Shown: positions 20,478 through 59,714 of the stretch, one piece after another | How the letters are laid out: every line of letters begins with the position of its first letter | How positions within the stretch are numbered: the stretch's first letter is position 1 | Origin: Parasphingopyxis lamellibrachiae | GTDB lineage: Bacteria; Pseudomonadota; Alphaproteobacteria; Sphingomonadales; Sphingomonadaceae | Direction of reading: 5' to 3' | Assembly: GCF_003385775.1 (NCBI RefSeq) | Contig: NZ_QRDP01000004.1 | Span: forward strand, 2,164,957-2,228,956 | DNA: 64,000 nt | Notes under the pieces: model-generated | The model's input: the letters and a program-made list of their open reading frames with translations, nothing else | Databases searched by the model: none | Told to the model about the DNA's origin: nothing | Program-made: the position numbers and the translations under genes

Positions 20478-23222
20478 TTAGAAGCGCGTACGAACCGTTA
20501 CGCCATAGGTCCGCGGTTCGGCGAGGAATGCCGAATAGGTCTGCTGCGGAGCGATGAACGGGGTGTTGAAGGCAACCTGCGTATAATCGGTGTCGAAGAG
20601 GTTCTGAGCCCAGAGTTCCAGCGACCAGCGATTGTCGGCGCCGCGGAGGCCCACGCGCGCATTGACCACGACATAGCCTTCCTGTTCTTTGCCGAACAAG
20701 AGATCGGAGCCGGTATTATAGCCGCTCGTCATACGCGTGTTGAGATAGACGAGGCCGCTCATGCCGTTGGAGCCGATAGGCGGCGTCCAGCTCATGGCGC
20801 CGGTCACGACGATGTCAGGCGCGTTGGACAGGCTGTCGCCGGGCAGCAGGCGCAGCGCCGGATCGAGCGGCGTGCCGTCGTCACGGCCGATAAGGTCATT
20901 TTCATAACCGGTATCAGCGTATGTGAAGCCCGCGTTGAAGGCGAGATAGTCGGTCGGATTGAGCGTAGCCTCGACTTCGATGCCCTGGGAAATGACCCCG
21001 GGCTGGACATCGCCAGGCGCACAGGCACCGGTCAGTCCGCCGGTATCCTGGTCGGCGCCGTTAAGGCCCGTGCCGCAGCTGTTGATGTTCTGAACGAGGA
21101 AAACCGTGCCGTTGAACGTGTTCAGCTGGAAGTTTGAAAACTCCTGACGGAAGGCTGCCGCACTGATCGAGAAGTTCCGGCCCGTATATTTCGCACCAAT
21201 CTCGAAGGCATCGACCGTTTCCTCGTCAAACTGAAGATTGGCCGGATTGTTCAGCACAGCAGGGCCGACGACAACCGAGATATTGGACTGGCCGGTCGTA
21301 TCGGCAGGGCTGTAGAACGCGCCGGTAAGTGCCGAGCGATCAAGGTTGAAACCGCCTGCCTTGTAGCCGCGAGAGTAGCTGGCATAGAGCAGCAGATCGT
21401 CCGTCGGGCGGTAGGAAAGAACGGCGGTGCCGGTGAATTCCTCTTCGCTGCGGTCATCGGAAATGTTGAGCGCATTGAGTTCCGTCGACGAATTGCCCTG
21501 ACAGCTCAGCGATATCAGCGCTCCGGCGAGCCCGGCCAGAGGCCCGGCCAGCAGCGGGGACTGAAGATTGCGCTGCACCGGGCAGATCGCATTGGTGTTG
21601 TTGAAGTTCGCCGAGAAGTCCTTGTTCTCATTCGTGTAGCGAGCGCCGAGCGTCAGATCGAGGCGATCGGTGATATGAATGATGTTATGTGTGAAGAAGG
21701 CGAAGTTCTCGCTGGTCTGCTCGTAACGCGTGCCATTGGCACCGACATTGTTGACTTGCGACAACAGGTCGAGGCCGCCGAGAATGAGCGGCGTTCCTGC
21801 GCCGAAAGCCGGCATAGTGCCGGGCGCCGTTCCGGCCAGCACAGCTCTTCCGCCCGCGCTCAGGCAGCCCTGACCGCCCGGCGATACAAGAGCCGGGTTG
21901 ATTGCGAGGATGACCCGACAAGGCGCGAAGGCCCCGTACTGGCTGCCGAATTTCAGATTGTCGGTAACCGTCAGGTCTTCATGCGCGTAATAAGCGCCGA
22001 TCAACCAGTCGAGCGTGTCGTTGAACGCCGTCCCCTGCAGGCGAAGTTCCTGGCTGAACGTCTGGAACTGGCGTGAGCCGGCATCGTTGCCCGGTGCGCG
22101 GAACAGAATGTCCACACCCGTATAGTCGGTGTCGGAACCCTGATTGTTGCTATAGTCGCGATAGGCCGTGATCGAGGTCAGGTCGACTGCGCCCAGTTCC
22201 CAGTTCGCCTGGAGCGAAACGCCCCAGTCCTCGGTTTCGCCCGCATAGGAGCGACCGGCTGTGGGGTAGATGTTGCGATCATAGGGATCGTCGGTGAAGG
22301 CCCGCGGATCCTGTCCCAGAGCAAGCAGGATCGGAATGATCGGGTTTTGCAGGCCAACCAGCGATCCGCCGCCGCCCGGTCCCGCAAAGGGATTGAGTGC
22401 GGCATTCTGCGTGGCGCCCGGTGTCATCTCCGGGGTCACGAATACTGCGGCACAGCATTCTTCGTCCTTGTTCGAATAATCGCCGATAATACGGATGCTG
22501 AGTTCCGGCGTCGCTTCCCACAGGGCCTGGGCACGGAGGAGATAGCGATCCTGATCGTTGACGCTGCCGCCATTGATCCTGTCATTATAAAAGCCGTCGC
22601 GTTCCAGATATACGCCATCGACGCGAGCTGCGACGGTGCTGCCGATCGGGAAATTTATGCCGCCTTCGAGACGGATGGTGTCGAAATTGCCGTATGTTGC
22701 TGCCGCATAGCCTTCAAGGTCGAAGCTGGGTCCTGCAGTAACAATGTTGATCAGGCCTGCCGACGCATTCCGGCCAAACAGCGTTCCCTGCGGGCCGCGC
22801 AGAACTTCCACCCGCTCGATCGGGCCGAGTTCATTGAGACCGGCGCCGGAGCGAGAGCGGTATACGCCATCGATGAACACAGCGACCGAGCTTTCAAGGC
22901 CCGGGTTGTCGCCGACCGTGCCGATGCCGCGGATACGGGCCGAGCCATTGGCTTCGTTGCCGGTCGACGAAACGAGCAGGGACGGAGCAAGCTGGTTGAG
23001 CTGGCGGATGTCATTGGCACCCGAATTCTGCAGGCTTTCCGCATTCACGGCGCTGACGGCGATCGGAACGTCCTGAAGCCGCTGTTCGCGACCCTGTGCG
23101 ATCACGACGATAACATTGTCATCGCTGCTGTCGCTCACTGCGGCGGTTTCGGCGTTCTGCGCCATGGCGGGTGAGGCTATTGCAGCGATTCCAGCGGTCG
23201 CTAGCAAGATTGATCTACGCAT
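20478..23222 (-). CDS. TonB-dependent outer-membrane receptor
   Basis: The 914-residue protein has a signal peptide (MRRSILLATAGIAAIASPAMA), a TonB-box-like segment (DNVIVVIAQGRE) and a plug domain (VPIAVSAVNAESLQNSG, then RIRGIGTVGDNPG and GPQGTLFGRNASAGLINIVT). A 22-strand-type barrel follows, ending in the aromatic terminal strand TYGVTVRTRF. AGGAG precedes the ATG. This large sphingomonad receptor class imports varied substrates such as siderophores, glycans or aromatics. No partner gene identifies the ligand: the neighbours are an antiporter and a VOC protein. Followed by a strong terminator, so it is monocistronic. Confidence 0.95.
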   Translation of the reverse strand: MRRSILLATAGIAAIASPAMAQNAETAAVSDSSDDNVIVVIAQGREQRLQDVPIAVSAVNAESLQNSGANDIRQLNQLAPSLLVSSTGNEANGSARIRGIGTVGDNPGLESSVAVFIDGVYRSRSGAGLNELGPIERVEVLRGPQGTLFGRNASAGLINIVTAGPSFDLEGYAAATYGNFDTIRLEGGINFPIGSTVAARVDGVYLERDGFYNDRINGGSVNDQDRYLLRAQALWEATPELSIRIIGDYSNKDEECCAAVFVTPEMTPGATQNAALNPFAGPGGGGSLVGLQNPIIPILLALGQDPRAFTDDPYDRNIYPTAGRSYAGETEDWGVSLQANWELGAVDLTSITAYRDYSNNQGSDTDYTGVDILFRAPGNDAGSRQFQTFSQELRLQGTAFNDTLDWLIGAYYAHEDLTVTDNLKFGSQYGAFAPCRVILAINPALVSPGGQGCLSAGGRAVLAGTAPGTMPAFGAGTPLILGGLDLLSQVNNVGANGTRYEQTSENFAFFTHNIIHITDRLDLTLGARYTNENKDFSANFNNTNAICPVQRNLQSPLLAGPLAGLAGALISLSCQGNSSTELNALNISDDRSEEEFTGTAVLSYRPTDDLLLYASYSRGYKAGGFNLDRSALTGAFYSPADTTGQSNISVVVGPAVLNNPANLQFDEETVDAFEIGAKYTGRNFSISAAAFRQEFSNFQLNTFNGTVFLVQNINSCGTGLNGADQDTGGLTGACAPGDVQPGVISQGIEVEATLNPTDYLAFNAGFTYADTGYENDLIGRDDGTPLDPALRLLPGDSLSNAPDIVVTGAMSWTPPIGSNGMSGLVYLNTRMTSGYNTGSDLLFGKEQEGYVVVNARVGLRGADNRWSLELWAQNLFDTDYTQVAFNTPFIAPQQTYSAFLAEPRTYGVTVRTRF

Positions 23223-58077: not shown

Positions 58078-58644
58078 TTACGCTTCCAGTTCGACATCCC
58101 AGTAGAGCCAGTCGCGCCAGCTGTCGTGGAGATAGTTGGGCGGGAATTGCTTGCCATGCTGCTGCAGCTGCCAGGTGGTCGGGCGGTGAGGCGGCACAGT
58201 CAGGCTCATATTCGCCTGTTTGGGCGTACGCCCGCCTTTTTTGAGATTGCAGGGCGCGCAAGCCGTCGCGACATTCTGCCAGGTCGTCTTCCCGCCCAGC
58301 CGGCGAGGGACGACATGATCGAAGGTCAGGTCTTCCGGTCGGCCGCAATATTGGCAGGTGAAATGATCGCGCAGGAACAGGTTGAATCGGGTGAAGGCTG
58401 GATATTCGCTCGGCCGCACATATCGCTTGAGCGCGATCACGCTCGGGATCTTCATCGTCAGCGAGGCGCTGTGTACTTCGCGCTCGTAATTTTCGACAAT
58501 GTTGACCCGGTCGAGAAACATCGCCTTGATCGCCGTTTGCCATGGCCACAAGCTCAAAGGGTAATAGGAAAGCGGCGTGTAATCGGCATTGAGCACTAGC
58601 GCCGGGCAGCTGTCCGGATGCCGGATCAGGTCAGGGTGATACAT
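58078..58644 (-). CDS. HNH endonuclease family protein
   Basis: The 188-residue protein has an HNH core with two CxxC zinc pairs: FTCQYCGRPEDLTFDHVVPRRLGGKTTWQNVATACAPCNLKKGGRTP. The N-terminal ALVLNADYTPLSYYPLSLWPWQTAIKAMFLDRV belongs to the widely conserved stand-alone chromosomal HNH family of alphaproteobacteria and cyanobacteria. It is not an IscB or intron enzyme as no RuvC or intron motif is present. Function unknown. Its leader (58645-58835) is unusually structured. Start at 58644, with GGAGGTG about 14 bases upstream. Confidence 0.88.
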   Translation of the reverse strand: MYHPDLIRHPDSCPALVLNADYTPLSYYPLSLWPWQTAIKAMFLDRVNIVENYEREVHSASLTMKIPSVIALKRYVRPSEYPAFTRFNLFLRDHFTCQYCGRPEDLTFDHVVPRRLGGKTTWQNVATACAPCNLKKGGRTPKQANMSLTVPPHRPTTWQLQQHGKQFPPNYLHDSWRDWLYWDVELEA

Positions 58645-58660
58645 GGTCTTACGAAAACAC

Positions 58661-58823
58661 CTCCGCTCTGCGAACCGCAGAACCGGAGTCCCTCGACCTG
58701 TCGCCACTCAGGACGAAAGAAACCGGCTCTCCGGCTCTTCCATCTGTTGTCACGCCTTTAGACAGATTAACGTGACGCGATGATGACAACACCAGTGGCG
58801 ACTCACGGTCAAGAGCCGGTTTC
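58661..58823. ncRNA. Candidate pseudoknotted RNA or leader between the HNH gene and gluQ
   Basis: Four paired elements fill this gap: a hairpin TCTGCG-AAC-CGCAGA (58667-58681) inside CTCCG/CGGAG; GTCGCCACT (58700-58708) with AGTGGCGAC (58794-58802); GAAACCGGCTCT (58719-58730) with AGAGCCGGTTTC (58812-58823); and TGTTGTCA (58745-58752) with TGACAACA (58784-58791). The second and third pairs cross, giving pseudoknot topology. It could be a leader of the HNH gene (minus strand) or of gluQ (plus strand); no known RNA family is recognised. Confidence 0.5.
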
Positions 58824-58835
58824 AGGAAATTGCGG

Positions 58836-59714
58836 ATGAGTGACGCCCTGACGACCCGCTTCGCGCCCAGTCCGACGGGCCTGCTTCATCTCGGCCATGG
58901 CTATTCGGCGCTCAGGGCGTTTGACTTGGCGCATCGCACTGCGGGCCGGTTTCTGCTGCGTTTTGAGGATATCGATGCCGGCCGTATCCGCGAAGAATAT
59001 TATGCCGCGATCGAGACGGACCTGCACTGGCTCGGCATTACGTGGGCCGAGACGCCGCTCCGGCAATCTTCCCGTTTCCCGGCCTACCGGGCCGTGCTCG
59101 ACAGGCTGAAGGACCGGGAACTGGTCTATCCCTGTTTCTGCACCCGCAAGGATATCGCTGCGGAAATTGCGGCAAGTGCGTCTGCGCCCCATGGCCCGGA
59201 CGGCGCGCTTTATCCGGGAAGTTGCCGGACCATGGCGGGGGCCGAACGTGCGCGCCGCGTCATCACCGAGCCGCATGCATGGCGGATCGATATGGCCCGC
59301 GCCGCCGCGCTTGCCGGCCGGCTTTTCTGGACGGATGCCAAAGTGGGGCGTGTAGAGGCCAGACCCGAAATTCATGGTGATGTCGTGCTGGCGCGCAAGG
59401 ATGTGCCGACATCCTATCATCTGGCCGTCACCGTCGACGATGCCGAGCAAGGGGTCACCGATATCGTGCGCGGCGAGGATTTGTTCGCGGCAACCCATGT
59501 CCACCGGCTGCTCCAGCACCTGCTTGAACTGCCGGTGCCGCGCTATCACCATCATGCGCTGATTGCCGACGAGCATGGCAAACGGCTGGCGAAACGCGAC
59601 GATGCCCGCTCGCTCGCATCGCTGCAAAAGCGGGGGATTGGCCCGGCGGTCGTCAGAGACGCGCTGCGGCGAAATCCGCCGGACATCGCCCGGTTGATAG
59701 ACACAGGCGAATAG
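58836..59714 (+). CDS. gluQ: Glutamyl-Q tRNA(Asp) synthetase
   Basis: Attaches glutamate to queuosine in tRNA-Asp. The 292-residue protein is a truncated GluRS: RFAPSPTGLLHLGHGYSALRA (HIGH-type), zinc-ligand Cys in YPCFCTRKD and YPGSC, and the KMSKS-like HGKRLAKRDDA. The anticodon-binding domain is absent, as in the family. The ATG at 58836 was chosen, with AGGAAA upstream right after the last arm of the structured leader. Confidence 0.94.
   Translation: MSDALTTRFAPSPTGLLHLGHGYSALRAFDLAHRTAGRFLLRFEDIDAGRIREEYYAAIETDLHWLGITWAETPLRQSSRFPAYRAVLDRLKDRELVYPCFCTRKDIAAEIAASASAPHGPDGALYPGSCRTMAGAERARRVITEPHAWRIDMARAAALAGRLFWTDAKVGRVEARPEIHGDVVLARKDVPTSYHLAVTVDDAEQGVTDIVRGEDLFAATHVHRLLQHLLELPVPRYHHHALIADEHGKRLAKRDDARSLASLQKRGIGPAVVRDALRRNPPDIARLIDTGE

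Follow-up and report, generated by a model that had tools for sequence, protein, structure and literature searches.

Between the divergently oriented genes hnh and gluQ of a Parasphingopyxis genome (Sphingomonadaceae) lies an element rich in inverted repeats, and the question it raises is whether these repeats form an RNA, on which strand, and to what use. A sequence-only reading of the 64,000-nt stretch of DNA analyzed here (the window) had proposed an interlocked, pseudoknotted RNA, either a regulatory leader or a free RNA. We found that the hnh leader is a genuine, conserved structured RNA, with two of its hairpins, H1 and H3, strongly supported by compensatory changes. The regulatory-leader part of the proposal is thereby retained, while the interlocked pseudoknot is replaced by an unknotted H1-H2-H3 array plus a fourth hairpin, H4 (Table 1).

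The hnh locus and its upstream motif

The hnh gene was found in 197 of 200 Sphingomonadaceae genomes. A Sphingomonas-type hnh-gluQ locus is also present in a genome titled Bacillus sp. 2B10 (L033); its hnh clusters with those of Sphingomonas, and the genome is probably mislabelled. Searching the window for tRNA and tmRNA genes returned none.

Table 1. Features of the hnh-gluQ region, in window coordinates
Feature	Position	Strand	Basis or remark
hnh, 188-aa HNH endonuclease	58078-58644	-	ATG at 58644-58642; PF01844, E 1.4e-14; PF14279, E 1.8e-14
GGAGG, probable Shine-Dalgarno sequence of hnh	58660-58664	-	By sequence; 15 nt before ATG 58644
H4, CTCCG..CGGAG, able to cover the ribosome-binding site	58661-58688	-	Site pairing against shuffles
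H3, GUCCUG-AGUGGCGA-CAGGUC	58695-58714; loop 58701-58708	-	Covariation, loop conservation
9-bp arm, partner 58794-58802	58700-58708		H3 loop of the window's genome; pairs only through an inserted G
H2, GGAAGA-G-CCGG-AGAG-CCGG-TT-TCTTTC	58715-58741	-	Individual folds
12-bp arm, partner 58812-58823	58719-58730		Real, not conserved
H1, GTCACGTT / GGCGTGAC, expected 5' end of hnh mRNA	58749-58776	-	Covariation, 60 distinct leaders
TGTCAT, -10-like box or regulator site	58783-58788	-	Fixed spacing, hnh upstream regions with and without leader
TTGACC, -35-like box, abutting the 12-bp arm	58807-58812	-	Conserved motif; putative promoter function
AGGAAA, gluQ ribosome-binding site	58824-58829	+	By sequence
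gluQ, tRNA glutamyl-Q(34) synthetase GluQRS	58836-59714	+	NF004315, 352 bits (cut-off 250)

In the window, hnh is preceded by the conserved motif TTGACC-N18-TGTCAT-N5-CGTCA. Of 158 hnh upstream regions, 97 contain the more general form TTGAC-N17/18-TG(T/C)(C/A)AT followed by GTCA(C/T), 52 of them with the structured leader and 45 without it, and 82 of these 97 have a spacer of 18. The motif is probably the hnh promoter, in which case the mRNA would start near 58777. Sphingomonad sigma-A promoters, however, have the consensus TTGNNN/TANNNN (PMC7566282), and TGTCAT differs from the TANNNN box. Because of this departure from the usual sphingomonad -10 element, the hnh start site is uncertain, and the TGTCAT box may be a regulator site or belong to an unusual promoter class. 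The pattern TTGACN{17,20}TGTCAT matches the window twice (0.02 matches expected), the second match lying at 22558-22585 (+). Together with a GTCA repeat 11 bp downstream, the TGTCAT box is strongly conserved in the window and in other sphingomonad hnh upstream regions.

The structured leader and its distribution

The minus-strand leader spans about 135 nt, from 58776 to the ribosome-binding site, and its hairpins H1, H2, H3 and H4 are common to the relatives. In an alignment of 60 distinct leaders that was fitted to the structure, and whose counts thereby lean towards H1 and H3, the covariation score of these two helices was 0.391 as against 0.199 in shuffles (0 of 500 as high) and at most 0.107 with the partners slid, 12 of the 14 pairs had changes on both sides, and for H1 alone 7 of 8 pairs had changed on both sides with 88.6% of the cells paired. 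Because of this fitting, H3 was recounted with the leaders anchored on its loop only, independently of the covariance model. Pairs 2 to 6 were then paired in 88.7% of cases, compared with 75.3% when the 3' arms were dealt at random (maximum 80.3% in 1000 deals), and pair 2 was formed in all 60 leaders, as UA in 27, CG in 19, UG in 7 and GC in 7. The recount agrees with the covariance-model alignment, and these covarying minus-strand hairpins bear out the earlier suggestion that the element, on the strand opposite to gluQ, makes up the hnh leader.

The H3 heptaloop is near-invariant, reading [N]GUGCGA in 58 of the 60 leaders, and an inserted G (AGUGGCGA) is found in the window's genome alone. 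In L004 the loop is GGUGUGA. For H2, which takes the form GACGCG..CGCGTC in other genera, support is weaker than for H1 and H3 (mean z -0.6). In 52 of 60 leaders, H2 gains at least 1.5 kcal/mol when it takes over the initial 3 nt of the 5' arm of H3. For H4, pairing with the ribosome-binding site reaches 0.95 in the window, compared with 0.71 in shuffles (p 0.03), and averages 0.72 over 48 leaders, compared with 0.61, with p<=0.1 in only 18 of the 48.

As for the strand, the paired columns contain 113 G-U but only 22 A-C cells when read in the hnh sense, which indicates that the selected RNA is the hnh-sense mRNA leader and disfavours an RNA of the gluQ strand. Bulk folding energy does not decide the matter, being lower on the hnh strand in 23 of 38 cases, and for the whole leader it is only modestly below that of shuffles, with a mean z of -1.5 for the hnh strand and of -1.0 for the opposite one.

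The leader is non-coding. An N-terminal extension or short ORF beginning at the GUG of the loop would be in phase with hnh in 25 of 48 leaders and shows no residue conservation. A second pseudoknot, in which the H3 loop pairs with the start-codon region, was likewise rejected, the pairing amounting to 4.67 bases as against 4.45 expected with no energy gain (48 leaders). In three leaders, all 7 nt of the H3 loop find a complement just before the start codon, perfect in L143 and L152 and with one G-U pair in L176.

A first covariance model, built from 14 leaders, gave hits in 77 of 399 family genomes with an E-value cut-off of 0.1. When 62 hits were used to build a second model, the element was found at E<=0.01 in 63 of the 399 genomes and 18 of 96 genera, one copy in each genome, and the weak matches of the first model that lacked hnh were absent. 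Such single-copy occurrence argues against a multi-copy or mobile element. All 62 aligned hits have hnh directly downstream, a count that leaves aside the neighbourhoods of a few of the 63 second-model hits (e.g. G389 and G327). Among 289 genomes of the class, the window's own was the only one with a match, and none of the genomes sampled outside the family had one. On the hnh tree, leader presence is clustered by lineage (3 changes, compared with 23 in shuffles), which is consistent with vertical inheritance with few gains or losses. Since most family genomes have hnh without the leader, the leader is dispensable for hnh. In four other alphaproteobacterial loci, including Kordiimonadales-like ones (L038, L053, L063 and L089), hnh is preceded by another kind of leader, which they apparently have in common and which contains hairpins such as CCGAT-AATGAGT-ATCGG, and structured hnh leaders may therefore extend beyond the family.

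No Rfam family matched even with permissive cut-offs, in line with the earlier note, in which no known class was recognized, and a limited search of the open-access literature found no published description of the hnh leader. With it, an HNH gene that is near-universal in sphingomonads and widespread in alphaproteobacteria gains a leader RNA of well-supported structure that is absent from Rfam 15.

Possible roles of the leader

We favour, with a probability of about 0.55, the reading that the element is a cis-acting 5' leader RNA that tunes hnh translation and has the H3 loop as its binding site. Transcription would begin right after TTGACC-N18-TGTCAT and yield, in this order, H1, H2, H3 with its [N]GUGCGA loop, and H4, which could pair with the ribosome-binding site. 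Since H2 and H3 compete for three bases, the RNA could, by the folding predictions, alternate between two forms, one with a long H2 and the other with a long H3. A trans-acting factor reading the H3 loop would then move the balance towards or away from the state in which H4 covers the ribosome-binding site, so that control of hnh would be exerted on translation. The factor would plausibly be a protein, for example the HNH enzyme itself, which is a reasonable first candidate as binder of the loop, and the near-invariant loop offers a direct handle for finding the regulator. In its covarying hairpins and near-invariant loop, followed by a hairpin that may cover the ribosome-binding site, the leader resembles riboswitches and autoregulatory leaders, but it differs from known translation-controlling leaders in having no Rfam class and in being confined to a single gene, hnh, and a single family.

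The leader could instead serve mainly in mRNA stability or processing, with H1 guarding the 5' end and H2-H3 as a site for a ribonuclease or RNA chaperone, and neither ligand nor feedback involved. H1-like 5' hairpins that can be recognized by eye in leaderless sphingomonads (e.g. L096 and L102) speak for such a role, as does the fact that the covering of the ribosome-binding site by H4 is not universal. We nevertheless consider it unlikely, since the 6-nt loop sequence is near-invariant over at least 18 genera, and this calls for a specific partner beyond the needs of stability.

That the hnh promoter produces a free small RNA ending within or after H4, the hnh mRNA being its read-through product, would fit a compact structured unit that begins at the motif and is present in single copy. 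This appears improbable, since the element is always fused to hnh with the ribosome-binding site right behind it, never standing alone in the loci read, and the only candidate for a U-run terminator behind H4 in the window is a weak one of 5 pairs. The region holds 2 terminator-like sites, compared with 0.7 expected.

By position, the nearest analogue of the leader is the HEARO/omega-RNA, which is likewise a structured RNA just upstream of an HNH endonuclease gene on the same strand. The HNH protein and its leader might accordingly be a minimal nuclease-RNA pair like IscB and omega-RNA, the RNA being part of a ribonucleoprotein rather than a simple regulator, a possibility that we hold to be slightly less probable than a free RNA. 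In addition to the position of the RNA, the points in its favour are that TbaIscB is the PDB entry closest to the HNH domain (E 2e-11), that the NCBIfam IscB model matches, below its cut-off (42 of 175 bits), and that the N-terminal domain is predicted to have the order strand-helix-strand-strand (E-H-E-E), the PLMP domain of IscB being a three-stranded mixed sheet with a helix that touches the terminal hairpins of the omega-RNA (PMC9640706). In contrast, i) the 188-aa hnh product has an HNH domain only and no RuvC, whereas the HEARO partner IscB contains RuvC and HNH, and Foldseek matches the HNH domain only; ii) RF02033 (HEARO/omega-RNA), which is found in 65% of HEARO/IscB 5' UTRs (PMC9755519), gave no match up to an E-value of 10 in 12 short leader loci and the window region, nor up to 5 in 14 loci; iii) the leader is about 135 nt long, compared with 200-400 nt for HEARO/omega-RNAs; iv) H1 starts about 6 nt past the -10-like box, so that a guide segment 5' of the scaffold has no space if the TGTCAT box is the promoter; v) the context is a lineage-clustered core gene and not, as for HEARO, a mobile element; and vi) the RNA gives no match in about four fifths of the family genomes, whereas almost the whole family has hnh. 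Given the lack of an RF02033 match and of RuvC, and a fold match restricted to the HNH domain, we do not file the leader as a HEARO RNA. No IscB was detected in 190 class genomes or in the controls.

IshB-type proteins are PLMP+HNH relatives of IscB of about 180 aa. The hnh protein resembles them in size, in its HNH domain and in the predicted strand-helix-strand-strand arrangement of its N-terminal domain, but differs in that this domain has no Pfam or Foldseek match. The name IshB occurs in PMC12477157. Outside the HNH domain, neither sequence nor fold matches were found for the hnh protein, and kinship of its N-terminal domain with PLMP was set aside, there being nothing beyond the predicted order of secondary-structure elements in its favour. 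An IshB-like protein with an RNA of its own is thus a low-probability lead. In a related scenario, likewise of low probability, a stand-alone, chromosomally fixed HNH protein of IscB/IshB ancestry would continue to bind a structured RNA derived from the leader of its mRNA, with the near-invariant GUGCGA hairpin as contact; the two would be what is left of an omega-RNA/nuclease pair after domestication and loss of the guide, and would now serve in autoregulation. Structured RNAs also lie immediately upstream of HNH genes of the IscB lineage, and binding of the own leader, if true, would extend this RNA partnership to stand-alone HNH proteins. The HNH domain of the hnh protein is nearest to those of IscB and Cas9d, and alphaproteobacteria show hardly any variation in its N-terminal domain (LNADYxPLSYxPLSLW..W).

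The crossing inverted repeats

The repeats from which the pseudoknot had been deduced are real: the arms of the 9-bp and 12-bp pairs are perfectly complementary and lie where they had been placed (58700-58708/58794-58802 and 58719-58730/58812-58823), as are those of the nested 8-bp pair (58745-58752/58784-58791), and the hairpin preceding them (58661-58688) is also present. In 300 dinucleotide shuffles of 58661-58838, a test run after the pattern had been noticed, a perfect pair of at least 12 bp occurred once, and crossing of two pairs with 9 bp or more in each never occurred; with this post hoc proviso, chance alone is a poor explanation, as had been argued. However, co-variation of the arms in relatives, whose absence had been named beforehand as evidence against the pseudoknot, was not observed even within the genus. 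Among ten relatives, seven of them Parasphingopyxis, the 9-bp pair is broken in all ten, and the contiguous 12-bp pair is present in the window only, 8 of its 12 pairs being retained in L002 and fewer in the other relatives.

The left arm of the 9-bp pair is the H3 loop, which reads AGTGGCGA only in the window's genome through one inserted G, and the 9-bp complementarity is due to this private insertion. In relatives the loop-side arm is (A/G)GTG(C/T)GAC, AGTGGCGAC being found in the window alone. The right arm sits in the variable spacer of the promoter-like motif and drifts among relatives (GTCGGGACT, GTCGCGGCT, GTCGCGTCT and others). Both outer arms lie upstream of the expected hnh transcript start and should therefore be absent from the hnh mRNA, of which they are probably not a part. 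With crossing pairs that are rare in shuffles but not kept within the genus, outer arms inside a promoter-like region, and a loop arm that needs a G insertion private to the window's genome, a pseudoknot of the 9-bp and 12-bp helices on either strand is extremely improbable. Part of the coincidence of arms comes from a tandem copy, CCGGCTCT/CCGGCTCT, and part from the ACCGGCTC-TTGACC stretch ahead of the -35-like box; this ACCGGCTC stretch, which forms the outer 12-bp arm, is found ahead of TTGACC in many sphingomonads, whether the leader is present or absent.
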